Assembly: GCA_027014125.1 (NCBI GenBank)
Contig: JALWEI010000008.1
Coordinates: 1-49,505 of the forward strand
Reading direction: 5' to 3'
Length of the DNA: 49,505 nt
From: Acidilobaceae archaeon
GTDB taxonomy: Archaea; Thermoproteota; Thermoprotei_A; Sulfolobales; Acidilobaceae
Part shown: piece after piece, positions 2,150 to 15,228 of the stretch
Layout: the number at the start of each line of letters is the position of its first letter
Position numbering within the stretch: the stretch's first letter is position 1
Notes under the pieces: model-generated
What the model was told of the DNA's origin: nothing
The model's input: the letters and a program-made list of their open reading frames with translations, nothing else
Database searches by the model: none
Translations under genes and position numbers: made by a program

Positions 2150-4024
2150 TTGGGCAGCTATGATTGGTCTCATGCGGCCGAAGCTCATGATATAGGTAAG
2201 CTGTTTATCAAGGGACTCAAACATAACTTAGAAGACATGCTGGATAAACTTAGGAAAGATGGAGTTAGGGATGAATGGCCAGTAATCCAAGCTGCACTAA
2301 AACACCATTGTAAAGTGAGTCCAGAGCCATACGATATTCAATTATATCCTGACTCCTATGAAACACTTCTAATCCATCTAGCAGATACGCTTGCCTCGCA
2401 GGCATCACGTATACTCAAAAAGCTAGAAGAAAAGTTGAAAGGACTTGGAACAAACTACTGCGTATATAAGCTATGGAAGGGTGCACTATGTTACAGCGAT
2501 AGGCCTCCACTCTACGATAAGTACGAGATGCTTATCAACTACTTGAAAAATGACCCAGAAGGCAAGAGCTTCCTAACATCATTCAGAAGATACTTACCCA
2601 GGCGTGCTGAAAATGCTAGAAAAGGAGCAAACATAACAAGCCTATACTCGCACTCGATTCTCTCAGGAAAATTCTTTAGAATTCTCTATAAATACTATTA
2701 CAATAGAATCCGTAATATAAGAATAGACTTCGCCAAAAGAGAGGACGTATGTAATCAGGCACACAACATCTTAAGGACCTTACCACTTGCTATTGTCTAT
2801 TTACGTATAATTCCGACACAATACATTTACCGAGTAAAAGACCTAAACGTATTTGAGATAATAAGAGATATTCTGTCAAGCTTTGAGAACAAGCATGGAG
2901 ACCATGTGTTGTATCGCGGATTCAATGATATACTCTTAATTGACATACCAGGAGTTAATGTTCATGAAGAAATAGTACAGAGAGTTCATGAATATGGATT
3001 TTATGTAGATATAAATTCATTATATTCTACTTTTCAAAAAGATAATAACAGGATACTGGGTATTGAGCCAAGGAAAATTGCTAGAAGATTCAAGATACGA
3101 GAATGCAGAGGGACAGCGTCTAGGAGGGAATGTTTTGAAGACACATATCGTTATCCACAATTAGAGAAACAAATTAATCCACCTATATGCGACATCTGTC
3201 AGCTAAGACCTGCCACAAAGACATGGGTTGACGAGGAATCCGGACTCATAGAACATCTTTGCGAGCAATGCTATCGTGTTAGAACATACTCTCCTAAAAG
3301 GCTCTACAAACTAGCGGAATGGAGTGAAGGTATTGTAGCATGGATACGCGTGAACCTGGATATAGAGGCACTAGAAGATGCTTTAGTAAAACTCTATATT
3401 AAATACCTGCTAGAGCTCGGTATCAAAGACGCCGATGAAATAGTTAATGATATTGAGAGAGAAGAGGGTATAGTATCGCCGACACTGTTGCAAGAATTCC
3501 TATGGGACTATGATGAATTCGTTAAAGCTATTGTCAGGAAAATCTTAAGTCTATTCCCAGAGGATAGTATTGAAATAATAGATAATTCCTCTTATGTAGT
3601 AAAGGTAGAGAGGCTATCTAATATCGTTTCTCTAATAGAAGGCTATAACCGTCTTTTACAGGAACACTTTCCCAGATTAATTACTTTAGAAGAAATTGAA
3701 CCTATAAGGTTTGGAATATCGATATCTCATGTCAAGTACCCGTTTCATGAGCACTGGCGCCTTCTCTCTAGTATGAGGAGAGGGTTCCTGTTACATGCTT
3801 ATAGAAGGGGTATTGTTGATGCAACATATAGGGAGCTTAATGCTACCCTACGTTTCCATCGTTCACGGGAGGTAGCTAGGAGAAAAAGTGTACTATATAG
3901 GGCAATAGAGATTGCTGAATACAGTAAATTGCTAGCGGAAGCCGAGCTCCTAAAGCATCTAAGGCATGTGTCAAGAAATGTTAACCTACAGCTTCTAAGA
4001 ATGCTACTAGAATTTGAAGGGTGA
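2150..4024 (+). CDS. cas10: Cas10-like large subunit, HD nuclease intact, cyclase-dead palm
   Basis: A 624-residue type III CRISPR large subunit. The N-terminal HD domain shows AHDIGK (His13, Asp14), a later HH pair (52-53) and LADTLAS (Asp79). A palm-like half follows at about 205-290, then a four-Cys zinc finger (Cys347, Cys350, Cys371, Cys374), a second palm half, and a helical C-terminal domain from about 545. In the second palm the strand that should carry the GGDD cyclase motif reads IEIIDNSSYVV (DNSS at 478-481), and the adjacent metal-site strand reads IRVNLD. This predicts single-stranded DNase activity without cyclic oligoadenylate synthesis. The start is TTG, with an in-frame TGA six bases upstream and GGGAGG as the Shine-Dalgarno. 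It is first in a three-gene operon. Confidence 0.85.
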   Translation: MGSYDWSHAAEAHDIGKLFIKGLKHNLEDMLDKLRKDGVRDEWPVIQAALKHHCKVSPEPYDIQLYPDSYETLLIHLADTLASQASRILKKLEEKLKGLGTNYCVYKLWKGALCYSDRPPLYDKYEMLINYLKNDPEGKSFLTSFRRYLPRRAENARKGANITSLYSHSILSGKFFRILYKYYYNRIRNIRIDFAKREDVCNQAHNILRTLPLAIVYLRIIPTQYIYRVKDLNVFEIIRDILSSFENKHGDHVLYRGFNDILLIDIPGVNVHEEIVQRVHEYGFYVDINSLYSTFQKDNNRILGIEPRKIARRFKIRECRGTASRRECFEDTYRYPQLEKQINPPICDICQLRPATKTWVDEESGLIEHLCEQCYRVRTYSPKRLYKLAEWSEGIVAWIRVNLDIEALEDALVKLYIKYLLELGIKDADEIVNDIEREEGIVSPTLLQEFLWDYDEFVKAIVRKILSLFPEDSIEIIDNSSYVVKVERLSNIVSLIEGYNRLLQEHFPRLITLEEIEPIRFGISISHVKYPFHEHWRLLSSMRRGFLLHAYRRGIVDATYRELNATLRFHRSREVARRKSVLYRAIEIAEYSKLLAEAELLKHLRHVSRNVNLQLLRMLLEFEG

Positions 4025-4030
4025 TAGCCC

Positions 4031-5023
4031 ATGAGGCCTCTAGAGGTACTCGAGAAAAGATACCGAGGGCAACTCTACGACTACAAGCTTAAGTCTCCTG
4101 CTATGATTCTCGGAGAGCGGTTTAAGGGAGGAGTATTCCGCCCCTCGTCTAAAGTACTTCGCTATAGCCAGATTACTGGTGCACTAAAAGCTGAGCTGGG
4201 GATTCAGGATATACATGCCGTCGGAATTATTGAAAAATTCAACATCGACTTCTTTGTCTACTCACCTCAAGACAAGGTAGCAGGTAGAAGCAAGATACCT
4301 CTAATAGCTGAAGTATTAACTGACGTGAGAGCACGAGTATATGTTGCATCTCTAACAGACCTTCCTGAAGAACTCTTTTTACGCATAGGTGCTTTGGCTA
4401 CGAAAGGGTTTGGAGAATCGCATCTAAAGCTAGTGCGGGTCATAGAAGTTAGCGAGCTAAGAAAGAGCATAGGAGAGACGAGTAGAATCCTTGGTGAAGG
4501 AGGCTTACCAGAGCTAGCCACCCGACTACCGTTTCGCGAGGAAGTATACAAGGGGCTCTTCGGCATAAGCAGAATAATAAAGCCCATCTATTGCTACATG
4601 TTCTACCCCACATCGCCTACAACGGGATATTATGAGCTATCTTTGAAGGAGGGCTCCATTGTAATTGCTCCCTCCATACTTATACGTAGGCGTGAAGAAA
4701 TGTTTCTTGGGGGATGGGGTATGAGTAGTATAGACTCTCTTGTCGAAAGAATAGTTCAAGATAGACGGTTAAGGGGTATCCAATTTACCTCAAAGGAGTT
4801 AAACGACCTTGCCGAGATATATGAGAGGTACGGGTTTACGGTTGCAGAGATACATCTGAGAAGAAAGATGGAGAGAGCGCGAAACGAGCAGGAACAGTAC
4901 AAGCTTCGAACTCTTCTAAATATTTTAAATCTTATCGAGAACTCCCGTATCCCTCGACAGATAGGAGCCTATATAATTAGGAACCTGGACATAATAGCTA
5001 GGATGGGGAGGAGATACCGATGA
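4031..5023 (+). CDS. Cas5-like RAMP (Csm4/Csx10 type) with helical C-terminal extension
   Basis: A 330-residue repeat-associated mysterious protein, the Cas5-type subunit expected to cap the crRNA 5' handle. The N-terminal ferredoxin-like fold includes SSKVLRYSQITGALKAEL (about 39-56). The glycine-rich loop is ALATKGFGESHLKLV (about 121-135). Residues about 234-330 are almost all helical and charged, and could be a fused Cas11-like small subunit, because no separate small-subunit gene exists. It starts with ATG 6 nt after cas10 and overlaps the next gene by 4 nt (ATGA), implying co-translation. The RAMP identity is firm. Cas5 rather than Cas7 is inferred from single copy, size and position. 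The Cas11 fusion is a hypothesis. Confidence 0.75.
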   Translation: MRPLEVLEKRYRGQLYDYKLKSPAMILGERFKGGVFRPSSKVLRYSQITGALKAELGIQDIHAVGIIEKFNIDFFVYSPQDKVAGRSKIPLIAEVLTDVRARVYVASLTDLPEELFLRIGALATKGFGESHLKLVRVIEVSELRKSIGETSRILGEGGLPELATRLPFREEVYKGLFGISRIIKPIYCYMFYPTSPTTGYYELSLKEGSIVIAPSILIRRREEMFLGGWGMSSIDSLVERIVQDRRLRGIQFTSKELNDLAEIYERYGFTVAEIHLRRKMERARNEQEQYKLRTLLNILNLIENSRIPRQIGAYIIRNLDIIARMGRRYR

Positions 5024-5853
5024 GTATAAAGTATGCTGAGTACGAGATAATCCTCACGACCGAGTCTCCATTCCGTGTGGGCAGGAAGAAGGACCCCTTC
5101 ACAACTATCGACCAACCCATAGTGATGATAGGGAACCGTGTTGTCATACCAGGCACAACACTTAAGGGCGCACTGAGAGAGGCTATTGAGAGATACCTCA
5201 TAGAGAACTATTCCGATAAACCTGGCATGAAGCCTTGTTTACCAGCAACGCCACAGACGGTTACACCCGACGAGATAGAGTTAATTCGTCAAGGCAAGTA
5301 TAAAGGGACGGGATGCCACTATCCATGTACGCCTCATAGCCAGAGCAATCCTAGTTGTAAGCACGTAATTAGGTTTAATAATGCAGAGCATTGGGCTCCC
5401 GAGGAGAGGGATACAGGTCTACATTACATATGTCCCGTATGTTATCTCCTAGGGGCCCAGGGGCTAGTCGGATTCGTCACGGTACCATTCTTATATGCTG
5501 ATGTATCGCCCTACGAACTACCTGCTCTGAGAATAGACCGAGTTACAGGAACTGTAGCTACAGGAGTTTATGGAACCTACAGGACATACCAAGTCGTCCC
5601 TGAGGATACAGAGTTCCGAGGGATACTCCGGATAATACTAGAAGACCCAATAAGAGGATGGAAGCTAGGAGAGCCCAGACCATTAAAGGGTCCAACACTA
5701 GGAGACCTATGGCTTGAGAAGAACCCAGAATGGAGAAATCCTGATAAGATAATAAATGAACTAATAATAGAGAGACTTAAATCAATTAGGAGGCTTGGCG
5801 GGTTCAAATCACATGGAGCAGGTTACGTGAAAATAGAAGTAAAGAAAATATAA
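5020..5853 (+). CDS. Cas7-like RAMP (Csm3 type) with predicted RNA-cleaving Asp
   Basis: A 277-residue Csm3-like backbone subunit. Visible family features are the VVIPGTTLKGALREAIE helix (41-57), RIDRVTGTVATGVYGT (171-186), VVPEDTEFRGIL (192-203) and the terminal glycine-rich loop LGGFKSHGAGYVKIE (259-273). Asp31 in TIDQPIV aligns with the catalytic Asp that lets Csm3 cut target RNA at 6-nt steps. An insertion with Cys73, Cys99, Cys103, Cys113, His115, Cys138 and Cys141 (CPVCYLLG) looks like an enlarged form of the Csm3 zinc-binding lid. It is the only Cas7-like gene, so the filament would have to be homo-oligomeric. It overlaps the upstream gene by ATGA. Confidence 0.82.
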   Translation: MSIKYAEYEIILTTESPFRVGRKKDPFTTIDQPIVMIGNRVVIPGTTLKGALREAIERYLIENYSDKPGMKPCLPATPQTVTPDEIELIRQGKYKGTGCHYPCTPHSQSNPSCKHVIRFNNAEHWAPEERDTGLHYICPVCYLLGAQGLVGFVTVPFLYADVSPYELPALRIDRVTGTVATGVYGTYRTYQVVPEDTEFRGILRIILEDPIRGWKLGEPRPLKGPTLGDLWLEKNPEWRNPDKIINELIIERLKSIRRLGGFKSHGAGYVKIEVKKI

Positions 5854-6063: not shown

Positions 6064-6318
6064 TTGAGCAGAGCTGTCAATGCCATTAAGGCTGTTCACG
6101 ACGTGGACTTAGAGAGAGTCTTGAGGAGACTGGGGCTCTACGAGAAGCTTGCCCGGGGAGAGCTTAGGTGCGCGGTCTGCGGCCGCTCCCTGTCACTTGA
6201 GAATCTCGGCGGAATCTACAAGGAAGACGGAGAAGTAAAACTAGTATGCAACAGGATAGAATGTCTAGCAGAGGCTGCTAGGAGAGTCAGCCTAGCCAGG
6301 CAGTCAGTCCGTCCATAA
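6064..6318 (+). CDS. Small zinc-ribbon protein of unknown function
   Basis: An 84-residue protein with a basic helical N terminus (DLERVLRRLGLYEKLARGEL) and a treble-clef or ribbon-like zinc site formed by CAVC (36 and 39) and CNRIEC (62 and 67). Between the pairs is an ENLGGIYKEDGEVKLV segment. I do not recognise a characterised family. It uses a TTG start about 210 bp after the cas7-like gene, behind its own AT-rich promoter region (TATA-like sequence near 6041-6049), and converges on the last gene of the restriction operon. Its place between two defence modules suggests, but does not show, a defence role. Confidence 0.7.
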   Translation: MSRAVNAIKAVHDVDLERVLRRLGLYEKLARGELRCAVCGRSLSLENLGGIYKEDGEVKLVCNRIECLAEAARRVSLARQSVRP

Positions 6319-6361
6319 ATGAGTTCAGGGAGCAATCTTTTTACTTTAAGCGCGCTTGGGT

Positions 6362-7327
6362 CTACTTGAACTCCATTACTGCGACGAGCCTTGTGACATT
6401 AGTTCTACCTTTATAGTATCGAGCCTTGTACTCAAACCTATCGACTAGATGAAGGCCTCTTATATTCTCCTCCATATACTCCAAGAGTCTTTTAACAACT
6501 CTTGATGTAAACCTCCCCGCAGATACCACATAAACTCGTTGGAGGTTAGGGCACTCTCTGTGAATTCTTTCCACGAATTTAACATAGGGCTCCCATAGCT
6601 CCAGAGCTACTTTCTCCAGCTTGCCAGCGCGCACTATCGCTAGGCTTACGTAGCGGCCGCAGACCTTTGGAGCCTTTATATCCTCTAACTTGGCAATAAT
6701 ATATAGTAAGTTGCGGAGTTCGTTAGTAAGCATGTCTCTGTTAACCTTTGAACCAAATCTACTTAGTATCCTCCGGAGCTCGTAGAGGAATACGTGCTTG
6801 TAGAGGGAGGTATCGTCGGCCTCGTGTATTAATCCTAATAGCTCTTTATGCCTGCTATTTTTAAAGGCATCATTGGCGAGTTCCTTGAACCTGCGTAGAA
6901 TGTGTGGTTGTACTTGTAATATGCTTTCAATTAGTCCTATGGAGATTAGCCTGGAGAATTCGTCTCCTAAGGCTGGTTCAAGATACTCTGATACAAGGTA
7001 TGGGGCAACGAGAAGCGCTACTTTTGCCAGGACCTCTTCTAGCTTGTCAATGTATTCTACCCTCACAAGTAAAAGGTTCTCTTCTAGGTCGACATCAACG
7101 CTATTCTCGTCTGACCACTCGATTTTCACTCTTCCTATGCTAAGAGGCCACTCGATGGGTTCGCGGAAAAGCAAGTTATTAAAGTATTCTTCGACATAGT
7201 CTTTGTGTTTCTTTCGGCGTATCTTGACTGCTATGGGATAGTATATGTTAACCTTAAACTTAGTGACGAGTATTGCAACCAAGGTCGAAGAATTTGCCCA
7301 AGACCTCAAGAAGCTTTGTAATAGCAT
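6362..7327 (-). CDS. Unknown protein at the end of the type I restriction operon
   Basis: A protein of up to 321 residues that I cannot assign. It is mixed alpha/beta with strongly helical middle sections (about 75-215), and has no recognisable catalytic motif. The first 25 or so residues (LLQSFLRSWANSS...) look unnatural, because the same DNA encodes the C-terminal part of a 39-residue membrane peptide in another frame. The true start may be an internal TTG giving MVAILVTKFKVN, or the two ORFs may be one gene split by a frameshift, which would make this a membrane-anchored protein. It is the last gene of the leftward hsdM-hsdS-hsdR run. Confidence 0.65.
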   Translation of the reverse strand: MLLQSFLRSWANSSTLVAILVTKFKVNIYYPIAVKIRRKKHKDYVEEYFNNLLFREPIEWPLSIGRVKIEWSDENSVDVDLEENLLLVRVEYIDKLEEVLAKVALLVAPYLVSEYLEPALGDEFSRLISIGLIESILQVQPHILRRFKELANDAFKNSRHKELLGLIHEADDTSLYKHVFLYELRRILSRFGSKVNRDMLTNELRNLLYIIAKLEDIKAPKVCGRYVSLAIVRAGKLEKVALELWEPYVKFVERIHRECPNLQRVYVVSAGRFTSRVVKRLLEYMEENIRGLHLVDRFEYKARYYKGRTNVTRLVAVMEFK

Positions 7328-7379
7328 ATATGAATCCTATTACTGCGAAAATCCATAGTAGGATGTCCCTAGGGTTCAT
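7260..7379 (-). CDS. 39-residue single-pass membrane peptide
   Basis: This short ORF starts with ATG overlapping the stop of the upstream peptidase-like gene (ATGA), the hallmark of translational coupling. It encodes MNPRDILLWIFAVIGFIYAI followed by TKLLEVLGKFF, that is, a short polar head, one hydrophobic helix of about 17 residues and an amphipathic tail ending in TRH. It overlaps the start of the next gene in a different frame. It is either a genuine small membrane protein of the restriction operon or the true N terminus of the 321-residue downstream protein separated by a frameshift. Confidence 0.55.
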   Translation of the reverse strand: MNPRDILLWIFAVIGFIYAITKLLEVLGKFFDLGCNTRH

Positions 7380-7744
7380 GTTAGCCACCTTTTAGCTCTC
7401 ATGTTGATATTGATAACGTTGATGAACTTCTTGACTATCCTATTCTCTATCTCATCGGCCTCCCCTGGCGAGAACAATTTATAGAGTGCTTTGTAGAATT
7501 CCTCTCCATGGTTTAGTGTTGAGAGCTTAATGTGCATCAACTCGCGAACTAGAATATAGTATAACTCGTCTTCACTGAACAACTCTAATAAGTTCTTGTT
7601 TAGCCTTATGGTTTTATTTTTGAGTGATATCGATGCAACTTTGTATTTCATAGGATAAAGGATTAGCTTAACATTATCTTCTACTCCAACGGCTTGCTTA
7701 GCGCGCTCTAGAAGCGTTTTTATCCGTTCCCTATCTTCCCTCAT
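7376..7744 (-). CDS. YgjP/M48-like metallopeptidase-fold protein with altered active site
   Basis: A 122-residue protein resembling the C-terminal half of YgjP/SprT-type zinc peptidases (DUF45), a family often found beside hsdR genes. The zinc motif HExxH reads VRELMHIK (Arg67 in place of the first His, then Glu68 and His71), followed by NHGEEFYKALY (His79), which corresponds to the NHSxxFW segment of YgjP. The Arg substitution suggests loss of normal zinc chemistry. It overlaps the hsdR end by 14 bp and its stop overlaps the next small ORF by ATGA, so it is clearly part of the restriction operon. The role in restriction is unknown. Confidence 0.7.
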   Translation of the reverse strand: MREDRERIKTLLERAKQAVGVEDNVKLILYPMKYKVASISLKNKTIRLNKNLLELFSEDELYYILVRELMHIKLSTLNHGEEFYKALYKLFSPGEADEIENRIVKKFINVININMRAKRWLT

Positions 7745-10700
7745 TACTCATCGCCCTCTCTAGCTCCTCGGTTATGAATTCATCTACTAGCCTGTCTGCG
7801 AGTTTTGCTAGCTCGCTTTCGCTTAGCTTCCCTCCTAGTTCTAGGAATAGGTCTTTTAGTAGGGCTTTTGAGAGGCGCTGCCTGTCACTAGGCTTTATTG
7901 TTGAGGTTATCTTCTTCCTGAGGAGGCGCTTTATCTCCTTTTTCGTATTCCTCAGCTTTAGGCTTACTGGGGATTCCTGGAGGACTTCGCTCCTGATGTA
8001 AGTATTGATTGCCTCTCCTATCTTCTCTTCTATGGGTTTCCCTCTAATCCTCTCCTCGTAGCTCCTCCTCTCCTCCTCTAGAGCCTTTAGTTGTGCTAGG
8101 AACGTTCTCAGGTCTATTTTCCTGGTTATCCATTCCCTGAGGAGTCTCTCGAGTCTCCTCATTATCTCCCTGTATATTGGGTCGTGGGGGTTCCTCGCTA
8201 GTATCCCGCGGAGGTAGAAGTAGTAGTCTGCGATCACCCTTCTCAGCTCTATTGTCGGCGTCTTCGATTTTAGGAGTTGGTCGAGTGTTTCATCGCTTAT
8301 TTCTGTCTCTGCTATCTTCTCGAATTCGTCTATGACTGTCCTGGAGTGTATGAACTTTATCAGCTCTCTCCAGAACTCCTTCCCGAGCCTTGTCGCTCTT
8401 CTCCTCATCTTCTTGAGTATGCTCCCATAGACGAAGGTTAGTACCTCGATGTCGTCTACGTAGAAGAGTTTCTTTGGGTGGCCTCCGAGAGCCTTGTATA
8501 GTTTTATTGTTCTACGCATATCATTCAACAGCCTCTTAGCCCTCGCCACGTCATCGTTAGCTTCCTTGGAGGAGGCGTAGAGGGCTATTACTCCTATCTT
8601 AGCTTCGAACTCTCTTCTATCGAAGGTTTTTGTTCTAAGCTCCTTTTTCAGGGTGTTTAGGTCTATTGAGGCGTCTTGGCCTCCCAGTACTAGTCTGGAG
8701 AGTCTGTCCTTGACGCTGTTGTAGAGGTGTATGAACTCCTCCACTTTCTCGTCTATGTTCTCCATTAGGTTCTCTTCGAAGTCCTTGCGTATCTCCTCGT
8801 CTGCTAGCATATTGTAGAGTGCTAGCGTCTTGGAGAGGTGCTCGAGGAGTCCAACGGAGTCTATTATGAGGCCGAACTCCTTATCGGGGTAGGGCCTGTT
8901 GACTCTCGCTATTGCTTGTAGGAGGCGGTGCTCGTAGAGTGGCTTATCGAGATACATTACCTTGAGTATGGGGGCGTCGAACCCGGTTATGAGCATGTCA
9001 GTGACGACGAGTACTCGGGGGTTCTCCTCTTCGAGGAACCTCCTCTGGATTTCCTTGTTAATCTCGTTCATGTCGCTGGTTCCAAACCTCTTCTGGAGCT
9101 CCTCCCTATAGGATACTATCTCCCTATCCCTATCGTTGTAGTTGTAGGTCATTACGACCTCTACCCAATCCCGTGCCTGTTCGCCGTACTTCTCAACTAG
9201 GTACTTCTCCAGGCTACGCTTGAACCGTACACAGGCTAGACGATTCACAGCTACTACCATAGCCTTGAATTTGAAGCCCTCAGTATCCTCTTCTAGCCTG
9301 TCAGCGATGTACTTGGCTAGTCTGTCGATGCGCTCCTCGTTCATCAAGAATACTCGGACCTTGTTGATGTACTTCCCGACCTTCCTGTATAGTGTGGGGT
9401 CTAGGTGGTCTAGGATGTCGAGGCCTGCCTCGCGGCTCTTCATGTACTCCTCTATGAAGCCCCGTATCTCGTCCTCGGAGAGCTTTATCCGCACCCCCTC
9501 GCGGGAGACCTCGCCCTCACTAACAGCCTGGTACGCGAGTGGGAGGGTGAAGCCATCCCGAATAGAGTCCCTTATGAAGTAGACGTCGAGGTAGTACTCG
9601 CCCCTCTCGGGGTAGCCGAACTCTATGAAGGTGTTCCTCTCATACTTGAATACGGGAGTACCCGTGAAGCCGAAGGCCAAGGCGTTAGGGAACACGGTCT
9701 TCCTCATAGCGGCCAGTATACCGTACTGGGTACGATGAGCCTCATCTATCAGCAGCAAGATATTCCTACCCCCTACCTGACCTAGCCTGACCAGGTACTC
9801 GTCCCGAGCCTTACCCCGAAGCCTGGCTAGCTCCCTTGCATGCCTCTCATGCTCCTCCGGCTTCTCCCGGCGAAGCCACTCCAGGTATTCCTCGCCCAGC
9901 TTCATGAGCAGGTCTAGGAGGCCCCCACGGAGCTCCTCCACCTCCCTCTCAAGCTCCTCCCTGCTCTCGGGGGCTCTGGGGCCCCGCTGAAACTTCTGAA
10001 TCGTGGTAAGGTATACCCCATAGGCTATGGTTCCGCCGAGATACTCGCTCTCCCTAATCACCCTTATCCTACGGTGCAACTCCCTGATGCTATCTATCTT
10101 CTGGAAGAGCTTGGTGAACCTAGGCTCCTCAATGTTCTTGAAGACCTTCTCATGCTGCTCCTCGAGGTCGCTCCGGTCCACTATAAAGAACACTATGGGC
10201 CTCCTATCCCAGTACCTGTCGAGGAAGTAGTTGGCTATGAAGAACATTGTATACGTCTTACCGCTCCCCAGCCAGTGCCATATCAGTCCGCGGTTGAGCC
10301 TCCCGCCAGCCATGTACTCGTCTATGCGCCTCATAGTCTTCTTAGCTGCGTAGTACTGGTTGTATCTAGCGATAATCTTGCCTAGCCCGCCGCCACGCTC
10401 CCTACGGTAGAAGACGAAATAACGGATGTACTCGAGTAGCCGGCCAGGCTCCAGGATATAGGTTACATCCTCGTACTCCCTGAGCCTACCTTCCTTGTCC
10501 CTCTCCTTCACAACCCACCTAAAAGCGGGTACATCCCTCTCCTCACGGCTCCAGTTAGGCCGTGTCGGAGTAACCCTCTCCTCATCACCCACAGCAACCC
10601 CAAACTGCACAAACCGGAACAGCTCCGGGCTGAACATCTCATACCTGCGAATCTGCCCCAGAGCCTCCTGGTAAGAGTAGGGCTCAACTAGCCGCTTAAC

Positions 10701-11150
10701 CTCAACGATGACAACGGGTAGACCATTGATATAGAGAACTACATCGGGCTCAATATTACCGGGGGACCCCAGGAACCGGAGCCTAATAAGGTAGAAGAAC
10801 AGGTTGTTCCTCGGCTTATCATAGTCTATCAGCTTAACCGTGACCTTACGCTGCCTCCTCCGAAGGTAAACCTCCACCCCATACTTGAGATACTGGAGAA
10901 CCCGGACCTCATTATCGCCACGAAGCCGGTCAAAAACCTCCCGGAGAGCCTCCTCTTCCTCCTCACTAGTAAGCCCAGCGAAAAATCTCCGGTTAATCCT
11001 CCTAACAGCATCCTTTAGAACATCCTCAAAGAAGAAGGGGACAAGCTCTCTCTCCCCAACACCCACAATACTGGAGCCATCACGCCAACCCTTACTCTCC
11101 AATCTACCCAGGAAAGTCTTAACATCAACTTCCTCAACACGAACACTCAA
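7731..11150 (-). CDS. hsdR: Type I restriction enzyme, R subunit
   Basis: A 1139-residue motor and nuclease subunit. An N-terminal PD-(D/E)xK nuclease is visible: [19 protein letters not shown] with Asp136, Glu150 and Lys152. The helicase part has Walker A LGSGKT (294-299), DEAH (469-472), FGFTGTP (motif III) and the late motif [12 protein letters not shown]. The C-terminal third is helical and charged, as expected for binding the methylase core. The family's usual length is about 1000-1150 residues, so it is full length. It starts at TTG overlapping the hsdS stop (TTGA). With HsdM2-HsdS it would translocate DNA and cut unmethylated foreign DNA. Confidence 0.95.
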
Positions 11151-12607
11151 GAACTAGCACCCCCGCCAGGACCTAGCAAGTTCTCCTCGCTATCAGGCCT
11201 CTCTACACAAACCCTGACCCTGCCCGTCAGGAGAAGCTCCATCAGGCCACGTTTCAAACGCTCAAGCTTCTCCTTACGCTTCTCTTCGACCTCAAGCCAT
11301 CCCTCGAGAGACATTATAGTGCTGGCAATTTTTTGTTGCTCTTCATAAGGCGGGTAGGGAATTAGTGTCTCTTCTAGTGCTTTCTTCGATAATTCTTTAA
11401 AAGTGCTCCCACCACTCTTGGCTTCAAGTATAGGTCTTATTAGCGTAAAGTAGTATGCGTAGAACTCTGGAACGACATTCGAACTTTTCTTTAGAATTAA
11501 ACCTTTACAACCTTGATTAAAAGTAGCAGGCTCCTCGAGGACTGCCACATAGCCTACAGGGGCTCTTGTAGAGAGTATTATGCTTCCTCTCGGCATTAGG
11601 GCTAGATGATAGTCTTTCAATGCCTTCTCAGTTATTTTTCGTTCGCTTCTGCGAATTATTATTTTTCCGTTTAATTTACTGAGGTCTTGAGGTGTAATCC
11701 AGTTAATTGTTCCATTATCCCAGTAGTCTCTGACCTTAGTAGATGGGGTTGTACCAGTAACTACGTTAAATAGCTCCTTCACTTCGACAACCTGCCATTC
11801 TTTTGGTATTTTCCCTATTGGTGTTTGCTTGTATTCCCTGTGTCCTATGCCTTTGGTTAGTAGTTCCTGCATTAGGCCCCGCTTAAGCCTCTCCAGCCTC
11901 CCGATAAGCCTCTCAGTAGTCTCGATAGCCTCATCAACGCTGGAGAGAACCTCGGCAATACTCCACTGCTCCTCCAAAGGAGGGATGATAATATTCATAT
12001 TCTTAGCCAAATTATGGTTTAAGTGTAGAACATTAGTTCCTTGGGCAAAGCTTTTCATAATTTTCCTAATATAAGTCCAACTAAGAAGATAGAAAAAGAA
12101 CTTCATATTGACGTTTCCCTTCGGTATTAACTTTGTTAAATCCATAGAATAAACGAGGTGCTCTCCTTGTTTAACAAAAGCTTCATCTATATAAAGTGGA
12201 GCCCCTATTATGAATCCTTTACTCATGTCAGTATTAGCAATTAACAAGTCTCCCTTCTTTAACAAGAAACGATTATCTATCTTTAATTCTTCTTTAAGAT
12301 ATACAGGTTTTGCGTCTTTTTTCCTTCCTCCCTCCTTCTCCATGTCATTTAATGTGATAAACCTAATTGATGTTCGTGCTTCACTAATATCTTTCTTTCT
12401 ATAAGAAAATCCTCTTTGAAAATCAAATAGTTCTTTAAGTTTAACTACTTGCCATTCTTTTGGTATTTTTCCTATCAGTGTTTCTTGGAATTGTGTCTCC
12501 TTGTAGAATCCTGTTATCCGGTATTTTGGCTTAGTTGCGTGTTGTTTTATGGTTATGATTGTATAGGTTGCTTGTTTTAGGTATTCATCTAGTGTCCTGT
12601 GTGGCAT
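11147..12607 (-). CDS. hsdS: Type I restriction enzyme, specificity (S) subunit
   Basis: A 486-residue protein with the two-fold layout of HsdS: two target recognition domains, each opened by nearly the same segment ([20 protein letters not shown] and [20 protein letters not shown]), separated and followed by conserved helical spacers ([17 protein letters not shown] and [17 protein letters not shown]). Each TRD reads one half of a bipartite DNA target. It starts at ATG inside the 3' end of hsdM (23-bp overlap). The middle of the gene is AT-richer than hsdM and hsdR, as often seen in exchangeable TRDs. The target sequence cannot be predicted from reading alone. Confidence 0.95.
11793..11818. 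repeat. Direct repeat in hsdS, copy 1 (second TRD)
   Basis: A 26-bp stretch beginning TGCCATTCTTTTGGTATTTT recurs at 12450-12475 with a single mismatch. It encodes the conserved IPKEWQV entry of each TRD. Such repeats allow recombination that swaps or deletes recognition domains. Confidence 0.85.
12450..12475. repeat. Direct repeat in hsdS, copy 2 (first TRD)
   Basis: Partner of the repeat at 11793-11818, same orientation, one mismatch over 26 bp, spaced about 657 bp apart within the gene. Confidence 0.85.
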
Positions 12608-14399
12608 ATCTGTGTCGCCCCCGCTTGTTTGCTTGGATTACTTGTTGGATGTATTGTAGTGCCTTGGCCCTGGCCTCCATAGCTTGCTTCTCTATTTCTA
12701 GGAGTTCTTGTAGTTCTTTCTCCAGGTCTATTTCTTCAGCCTCTAGGGGTGGGGTTACATAGAGGGTTACGTTTAGGTTGTAGTCGTTCTCTCTGACTTC
12801 CCGGAGGGTTGCTATGTGGCTTAGACCAGGCTCCTCCCTGAACCCTCTGTAGATTTCGACTATTTTCTGGACGTGTTGTTCTCCTAGCCTGTTGAGCCTC
12901 CTCACCTCTGGGTGTTTCTCGTAGAGCTGGCTTGCGTTTATGAAGAGTATCTTGTCCCGGCGCTCTGGCGGTTTCTTCTTGTTGAATATTATGATTACTC
13001 CTGGGGCCTGTGTGTTGTAGAATAGCTTCTCTGGTAGGAGTATAACTGCTTCTATTAGGTCTTCTTCTACTATCTTCTTCCTTATGTTCTTCTCCTTTCC
13101 TCCCCTGAAGAGGGCTCCGTTGTCTATCACTACTCCTGTCTTCCGTGTGGCGTAGTGGGTGAGGAGTTGTATCCAGGCCCAGTCTGCTTGGCTGTTGGGT
13201 GGGTATCCGTAGCGGTATATCCTGCGTAGCCTGGGGTCTTTGGAGAGTGTTTCCTCGCCGTAGCCGTCCTGGTTCCAGGGTGGGTTTGAGAGGGTGTAGA
13301 CCGGCCTATTGTCTATCTTTGGGAATTTGGGGTTTACTAGGCTGTCTCCAACGTATATCTCAGCCTCGATGCTTGCCTCAGTGTTGCCTATCATGTTGTT
13401 TAGTATTAGGTTCAGCTTCGCCAGTGTCGCCGTTGTCTCGTTTCTCTCTTGGCCATAGAATTCCATGTCTACATCGGATAGTTCTCCGCCTTCCTCGATG
13501 ACCTTGTTTACTATGTACTTGTAGGCTTCTATCAGCATCGCGCCGGAGCCTGCTGCGGGGTCTATGACCACTGCTCCATTCTCTACATCGAGTAGCCTGA
13601 CTAGGAGCCTGATTACCTCTCGGGGGGTGTAGATTTCTCCCTCCTTCACCTTCTGTGAGGCGAAGTAGGATAGTATCCACTGGTAGGCATCCCCTAGCAC
13701 GTCATAGTCTACCTTGGAGAAGTCGAGTTCGTTGAAGATCCTAACTATACCCTCTAGGATGTGGAGGTTATCCTCGTTTATGAAACCAGTAAGGCCTAGC
13801 ATCTCCACGAGCTTAGATAGCTCGCCTATCTCCGGGTTCAGGCGGCCAATCTTTATCAGGGCGTTAGCCATCTCCTTGATTGTATCTCTTTGCCTAGTGA
13901 CCTCGTGCCATGTTAGCAGCTTCTGCTCGTCCTCGTCATACAAGACCATGTACTCCCTATTGGCAAGCATGTAGGCTTGGGTCACCGTGGCACCTTCAGC
14001 TAGGTTCCTCTTGACACGGTCCATCCACTTATCGCTAACAACCTTGTAGAATAGGAAGACGAGCAGAACCTTGTAGTCGACACCGCCACGGATTAGGTCA
14101 GCTGCCGCCTTGAGCGTCCTGAAGAGTCTATCTCGGGTTACCTCCCTCTCCTTAGGGTATACGAGCTGGTATAGGCTAATCCTCCTGTCCCGTGGGTCAC
14201 GAGTGACCTGTGCTAGCCCGTTCTTCACTAGGATAGACATTAGCTCCTTCACGCTACCCGCCTCTATACCCGCCTTCCGGAGAACCTCCTCAGCCTCAGA
14301 GAGCGTGAAGGGCCTCGAGCCAAAGTTTCTCTCCAGAACCAGGTAGCGCTTCTTGACCCAGTTCTCTAAGTCCGCTAGCTTATCCCAGGGCAAGCTCAA
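12585..14399 (-). CDS. hsdM: Type I restriction-modification, methyltransferase (M) subunit
   Basis: A 604-residue N6-adenine methylase subunit. Residues 1-90 form a winged-helix-like region ([13 protein letters not shown]-type helices) not found in short HsdM proteins. The HsdM helical N domain follows at about 90-240. The SAM-binding motif I is [10 protein letters not shown] (280-289) and the catalytic motif IV is NPPW (372-375), followed by the family's C-terminal helices. The chosen start is TTG with GGTG 8 nt upstream and an in-frame stop just before it. It is first in the leftward operon hsdM-hsdS-hsdR and lies directly behind an inverted-repeat operator. It modifies host DNA so that HsdR ignores it. 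Confidence 0.95.
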
Positions 14400-15106: not shown

Positions 15107-15134
15107 TGTTATTATGACGGTTAGGAGGTGTTTG

Positions 15135-15228
15135 TGGAGCCGCCGGCGGGATTCGAACCCGCGACCACCGGCTTACAAGGCCGGCGCTTTAGGCCCCACG
15201 CAGGGTCTGCCTGCTGAGCTACGGCGGC
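15135..15228 (-). tRNA. tRNA-Thr (anticodon TGT) with an 18-nt D-arm intron
   Basis: Acceptor GCCGCCG pairs with CGGCGGC, the anticodon arm is CCGGC CTTGTAA GCCGG (anticodon TGT), the T arm is GCGGG TTCGAAT CCCGC, the discriminator is T, and CCA is encoded (15135-15137). The D stem GCTC should pair with GAGC, but genomic sequence has GA, then 18 extra bases (15188-15205), then GC. Removing the 18 bases restores a perfect D arm and a 73-nt tRNA. This is a non-canonical archaeal intron at tRNA position 23/24 (exact boundary ambiguous by one A). It also forms the right flank of the defence island. Confidence 0.93.

Follow-up and report, generated by a model that had tools for sequence, protein, structure and literature searches.

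Three adjacent genes in the genome of an Acidilobaceae archaeon raise the question of whether they form a working type III CRISPR (clustered regularly interspaced short palindromic repeats) effector that has no cyclic oligoadenylate (cOA) signalling, which subtype they belong to, and how they would act. The genes lie at positions 2150–5853 of a 49,505-nucleotide stretch (the whole of contig JALWEI010000008.1, here called the window). An initial sequence-only reading described them as a Cas10-like gene and two genes for Cas5-like and Cas7-like RAMP proteins, and proposed a stand-alone HD DNase that was either III-F-like or a new minimal variant. Our analysis shows that the operon is an intact member of the rare subtype III-F, a known subtype and not a new system. 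Its novelty is the three-gene architecture, in which Cas5 and Cas11 are fused.

A three-gene operon of subtype III-F

The operon has the following features, all on the forward strand:

2150–4024, +, cas10f: 624 aa; PADLOC profile Cas10a|Cas10f, E = 5.4e-77, residues 10–609
Domains of Cas10f: HD nuclease (H13, D14, H52, D79), Palm1, C4 zinc finger, Palm2 without GGDD, C-terminal helical domain
4031–5023, +, cas5f-cas11f fusion gene: 330 aa; matches to the Cas5_IIIf and Cas11f profiles
4721–5023, +, Cas11 domain: from an internal ATG (codon 231), by alignment with stand-alone Cas11
5020–5853, +, cas7f: 277 aa; Cas7_IIIf, E = 3.2e-60; Pfam RAMPs, E = 3.7e-10; candidate RNA-cleaving Asp31

The coordinates and the III-F profiles agree with the trio as first described, including the 6-nt spacing between cas10 and cas5 (4025–4030) and the ATGA overlap of cas5 and cas7 (5020–5023). 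Three long collinear frames, all with III-F profile matches, are far beyond chance, and a III-F profile was the best PADLOC match for every part of the operon. Pfam or NCBIfam alone recognized neither the Cas10 nor the Cas5 protein; PADLOC recognized both. The start codon of cas10 is TTG, preceded by GGGAGGATGTGAGG; it is credible because it has a G-rich ribosome-binding site and because residue 10 is already inside the profile match. Placement in an ordinary III-A or III-B clade was tested and was not found.

Genome searches yielded the relatives, and cas10, cas5, cas11, and cas7 were located in them with profiles built from four seed operons. With duplicates removed (L012 is the same locus as L020, and L017 the same as L041) and L016 from the genome search counted, at least cas10 and cas5 are present in 25 distinct III-F loci of archaea and bacteria. 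L039 breaks off within cas5, and cas10 alone is present in four more loci. The order cas10-cas5-cas11-cas7 holds in every surveyed locus whose contig reaches far enough, and one cas7 is found in every operon that reaches this gene. The single cas7 of the window is therefore not a reduction, as had been supposed. Nor is the operon minimal in its subunits: because Cas11 is fused to Cas5, three genes encode four subunits. Of the additional cas7 and cas11 genes that had been thought absent, cas11 is thus present in fused form and cas7 is single.

Fusion of Cas5 and Cas11

Residues 15–219 of the second protein match Cas5_IIIf (E = 7.2e-44), in agreement with a Cas5-like RAMP, and residues 231–325 match the whole Cas11f profile PDLC01224 (E = 1.2e-28; both PADLOC), a complete C-terminal domain that the sequence-only reading had missed. 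Since the whole Cas11f profile is matched inside the Cas5 protein, we conclude that this gene encodes Cas5 and Cas11 as one fused protein. In its AlphaFold 2 (AF2) model the RAMP fold extends to about residue 220, and a low-confidence linker (222–231) leads into an all-helical domain. The III-D complexes 8s9v, 8s9t, 8s9x, and 8s9u gave the best PDB fold matches, in each case to chain A, which we read as the Synechocystis III-Dv Cas7-Cas5-Cas11 fusion.

Six of the surveyed loci, the window and those listed here, have the Cas5-Cas11 fusion; in the rest the two are separate genes:

L020: Desulfurococcales metagenome-assembled genome (MAG), same contig as G012; fused; nearest named relative
L021: 'Asgard' MAG, 4.2-kb contig that may be misbinned; fused
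L022: Thermoprotei MAG; fused
L025 and L027: Methanoperedens and an uncultured archaeon; fused

PADLOC confirmed the fusion in L020, L025, and L027. In a concatenated tree the fused loci stand among loci with ordinary separate genes, and the window clade and the L025/L027 pair are placed apart with weak support. The tree favours two independent fusion events; a single origin is not rejected (approximately unbiased test, p = 0.156). The intact fusion occurs in three of 229 genomes of the class and a decayed remnant in a further one (G040); the plasmid and viral collections contained no relative. The literature searched, with most subscription journals outside its scope, contained no fused three-gene III-F architecture.

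The decayed remnant, of the fused type, comes from an order-level relative (L018, 6750–7472) and consists of fragments only, covering cas10 residues 3–48 and 512–623 and cas5 residues 5–91. It adjoins a CRISPR array of ~18 repeats (3615–4888) and a PIN-like toxin-antitoxin-like pair; similar PIN-like genes adjoin the III-F operon at L012.

The ATG at 4721 lines up with the first codon of stand-alone Cas11, and all four loci of the window clade have GGGGG or GAGGG ~7 nt 5' of it. At the Cas11-start position, L025 and L027 lack a Met. Synonymous changes are fewest at the junction (codons 216–234), a signal that is not significant (P about 0.08) and is exceeded by a stronger dip elsewhere, in cas7. 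The codon-231 ATG may be a working internal start or a relic of a former gene border. The long Cas11 proteins (~165–205 aa) of other III-F loci were also considered as tandem duplications, an explanation that was rejected as their N-terminal halves match neither their C-terminal halves nor short Cas11.

Cas10 retains the HD site and has no GGDD

The HD motif of Cas10 is His13-Asp14 within AHDIGKLF, and the partner residues H52 and D79 are present. Among the 27 III-F Cas10s having the region, H13, D14, and D79 are kept in all and H52 in 26; none has GGDD at Palm2. The window protein reads DNSS at 478–481, and its first Palm2 strand reads IRVNLD. In the AF2 model (predicted local distance difference test score 87.7, predicted template modelling score 0.88), DNSS sits in a strand-turn-strand (474–478/481–486) that follows the C4 zinc finger (C347, C350, C371, and C374, four Cys kept in most III-F Cas10s) and forms the Palm2 hairpin. 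Foldseek with this model gave Csm1 as top matches.

Profile-profile alignment to 22 Csm1-type Cas10s, all 22 with GGDD, extended over the full length (probability 98.9, E = 2e-17) and placed the Csm1 GGDD at about I477-D478-N479-S480, one residue before the DNSS register. The Csm1 profile was used for this placement instead of the genome's single III-B Cas10, with which hhalign of the III-F profile set the Palm1 hairpin opposite GGDD in a chance-level match only. A PDB search with the single Cas10 sequence gave no match. The Palm2 register is uncertain by one or two residues, and GGDD or any GG appears in no register; the Palm1 hairpin, YRGFND (255–260), is also not GGDD. As a control, the III-B Cas10 of the same genome (contig 26) carries GGDD in YAGGDDLLAI. 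The sequence-only reading was therefore right about the HD motif and about DNSS, and the search for GGDD with the Csm1 profile and in the predicted structure found none.

A helical C-terminal region that can be aligned to other III-F Cas10s is present. A PADLOC scan of the neighbours at 6064–14399 found no CARF family and no cOA effector gene beside the operon; the only CARF-like open reading frame, identified by eye, is at the separate III-B locus (L070, 1722–2549). III-F has been described as having no cyclase motifs or effectors, with HD generally present (PMC11229360), and the proposal of a III-F-like, HD-proficient, cyclase-dead system is thereby borne out.

The first ~950 bp of cas10, which encode HD and Palm1 (2150–3100), share ~73% identity with L020 and ~72% with L022. 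From 3100 to 5850 identity to both is mostly 82–97%, and L020 and L022 are 80–92% identical to each other throughout. Given this drop the window cas10 looks recombinant, with an HD-Palm1 half that appears to have been taken from another III-F lineage.

Cas7 and the nature of the target

In sequence alignment, Cas7 D31 (TIDQPIV; IDQPIV...IPGTTLKGALR) matches a solved III-D Cas7 and falls in what would be the catalytic Asp region of Csm3/III-D Cas7. We take it to correspond to Csm3 D33. Among the aligned III-F Cas7s this position is Asp in 10 of 24, Lys in 11, Glu in two, and His in one, and the Asp is held by all six fused loci (the window clade and L025/L027) and by four other loci. In characterised type III systems an Asp at the Cas7 site is required for RNA cutting (PMC11026444). 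Because the window Cas7 keeps D31, slicing of target RNA is predicted besides the HD DNase, so that of the stand-alone HD DNase first proposed the HD site stands and the exclusive role probably does not. The variation at position 31 suggests that III-F is a mix of slicing and non-slicing complexes.

That variation can also be taken as a sign that the complex targets DNA directly in the manner of Cascade, with the CRISPR RNA (crRNA) pairing with DNA, the HD domain cutting the displaced or target strand without a transcript, and D31 as a leftover. In many III-F Cas7s the Asp is replaced by K, E, or H, a published classification table enters III-F as 'DNA?' (PMC8036902), and a related argument has been made for III-H and III-G from loss of the Cas7 Asp together with an active HD (PMC12669027). 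Against this stand the Asp retained in the ten loci above, strong purifying selection on cas7, and the folds of Cas10 and Cas5-Cas11, which match RNA-targeting III-A and III-D subunits. We regard direct DNA targeting as possible but doubtful.

Selection on the operon and supply of crRNA

The ratio of nonsynonymous to synonymous substitution rates (dN/dS), where computable, is 0.10–0.26 between the window and L020 and 0.04–0.08 for more distant pairs. The operon is under purifying selection, and from the low ratios it follows that each of the three genes is maintained, also the fusion gene. The 49.5-kb window has no array, cas6, or cas1. Elsewhere the genome has two cas1 and two cas6 genes: a I-A locus on contig 39 has a 60-repeat array (repeat GAATCTAGTTCATAGAGTTGAAAG) and a cas6, and the GGDD-bearing III-B system on contig 26 also has a cas6. 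Since there is no local array or cas6 and both occur elsewhere, supply of crRNA in trans is likely.

The missing array, cas6, and adaptation genes could instead mark a decaying or inactive remnant that provides no immunity, as could the rarity of the fusion in the class and the fragments in the order-level relative. The frames are, however, all intact, the HD and Cas7 active-site residues are kept, and type III loci without cas6 are known to be supplied with crRNA in trans (PMC8036902). As the operon is under selection, with dN/dS no higher than 0.26 in any computable pair, a remnant is improbable. Assignment to another cyclase-dead subtype (III-C, III-G, or III-H) or to a subtype of its own is very improbable, as III-F profiles are best for all parts, the fused loci fall among ordinary separate-gene loci in the tree, and the window Cas10 keeps the C-terminal domain that a diverged Cas11 is described as replacing in III-H.

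A model for the fused III-F effector

We consider it probable that this is a functional III-F effector operon of a hyperthermophilic crenarchaeon, combining an RNA-triggered HD DNase with slicing by Cas7, making no cOA, and using crRNA supplied in trans. The catalytic activities, the crRNA supply, and the assembly described here are those that we infer. The source of the crRNA would be arrays outside the window (the I-A array), with Cas6 cutting it in trans. One Cas5-Cas11 would sit on the 5' handle of the crRNA, followed by a filament of Cas7 copies, and Cas10 would occupy the base. Once the crRNA pairs with a target transcript, the HD domain of Cas10 would be activated to cut exposed single-stranded DNA (ssDNA), and slicing of the bound RNA by Cas7 D31 would end the activation; no cOA would be produced. 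The Cas11 filament would consist of the fused copy alone or, less surely, of the fused copy and free Cas11 made from the ATG at 4721. More tentatively, the operon might encode a separation-of-function effector that is RNA-guided, RNA-slicing, HD-DNase-active, and non-signalling, has Cas11 in Cas5-tethered and free internal-start forms, and works beside the signalling III-B complex of the same cell from a common crRNA pool.

Several points weigh against the RNA-triggered mechanism. Its target type, activation, and cleavage are drawn by analogy to III-A and III-B, and the literature searched contained no experimental study of a III-F complex. The published prediction for III-F, a DNA target, has no RNA cleavage (PMC8036902). 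That the window Cas5 reads a I-A-type crRNA handle is presumed. Finally, most III-F Cas10s still have acidic residues in Palm2: E or D at hairpin position 480 in 21 of 27 (Ser in the window clade), and the Asp that closes the first strand, D404, in 18 of 27. Given these retained residues, a non-standard palm activity is conceivable elsewhere in III-F.

Genomic surroundings

A tRNA-Thr(TGT) gene at 15135–15228 (-) has its 3' half repeated at 1822–1864 (43 nt, 95%); ARAGORN labels this gene tRNA-Pro in the window and Thr in the same-genus genome G002. Between the repeats is an AT-richer stretch that contains both the III-F operon and an operon for type I restriction-modification; its layout is that of a putative element integrated at a tRNA 3' end. 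No integrase was recognized. Similarity to G002 stops at 15134; the G002 contig ends 480 bp past the tRNA, and the left flank of the island has no close counterpart in relatives. Other genes of the island include:

7376–7744: YgjP/SprT-like metallopeptidase gene, overlapping hsdR by 14 nt
7731–11150, -, hsdR: type I restriction-modification
11147–12607, -, hsdS: type I restriction-modification
12585–14399, -, hsdM: type I restriction-modification

Comparison with known systems

A thermophile's three-gene set that lacks a cyclase and keeps its HD and Cas7 sites intact is suited to asking whether RNA-triggered ssDNA cutting alone immunises. In III-A and III-B this effect is difficult to separate from that of cOA signalling, which also acts there. 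The split between slicing and non-slicing complexes suggested by the variable Cas7 Asp is likewise testable.

The III-F type locus is Thermotoga lettingae Tlet_0097-0100 (PMC8036902). The window shares with III-F a single copy each of cas10, cas5, cas11, and cas7, a Cas10 that has HD and lacks GGDD, the gene order of all surveyed relatives, and the absence of a recognized cOA effector gene next to the operon. It differs in that Cas5 and Cas11 are one polypeptide, giving three genes instead of four, and in that its Cas7 has retained the catalytic-type Asp, which is missing from many III-F systems.

In archaeal I-B systems, Cas11 is made by internal translation in Haloferax cas8b (PMC11899642). 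Both there and in the window, a Met inside a larger cas gene aligns with the Cas11 start; in the window the internal start is a candidate only, its synonymous-site signal at the junction having a P of about 0.08.

III-H, which is distantly related to III-F and in which a diverged Cas11 takes the place of the Cas10 C-terminal domain (PMC12669027), resembles the window in its cyclase-dead Cas10 with HD and in having no adaptation module. The window does not have this replacement, and its Cas11 is on Cas5.

The Synechocystis III-Dv operon encodes a Cas7-Cas5-Cas11 fusion (PMC11026444). Here too Cas5 is followed by Cas11 in one chain, and III-D chain A gave the top PDB folds for the window fusion. 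In contrast to III-Dv, the window fusion does not include Cas7, there is a single cas7 rather than fused and multiple ones, and Cas10 has no GGDD. The Cas5-Cas11 fusion thus parallels the III-Dv protein and is a further example of the trend by which type III effectors pass from multi-subunit to fused forms.

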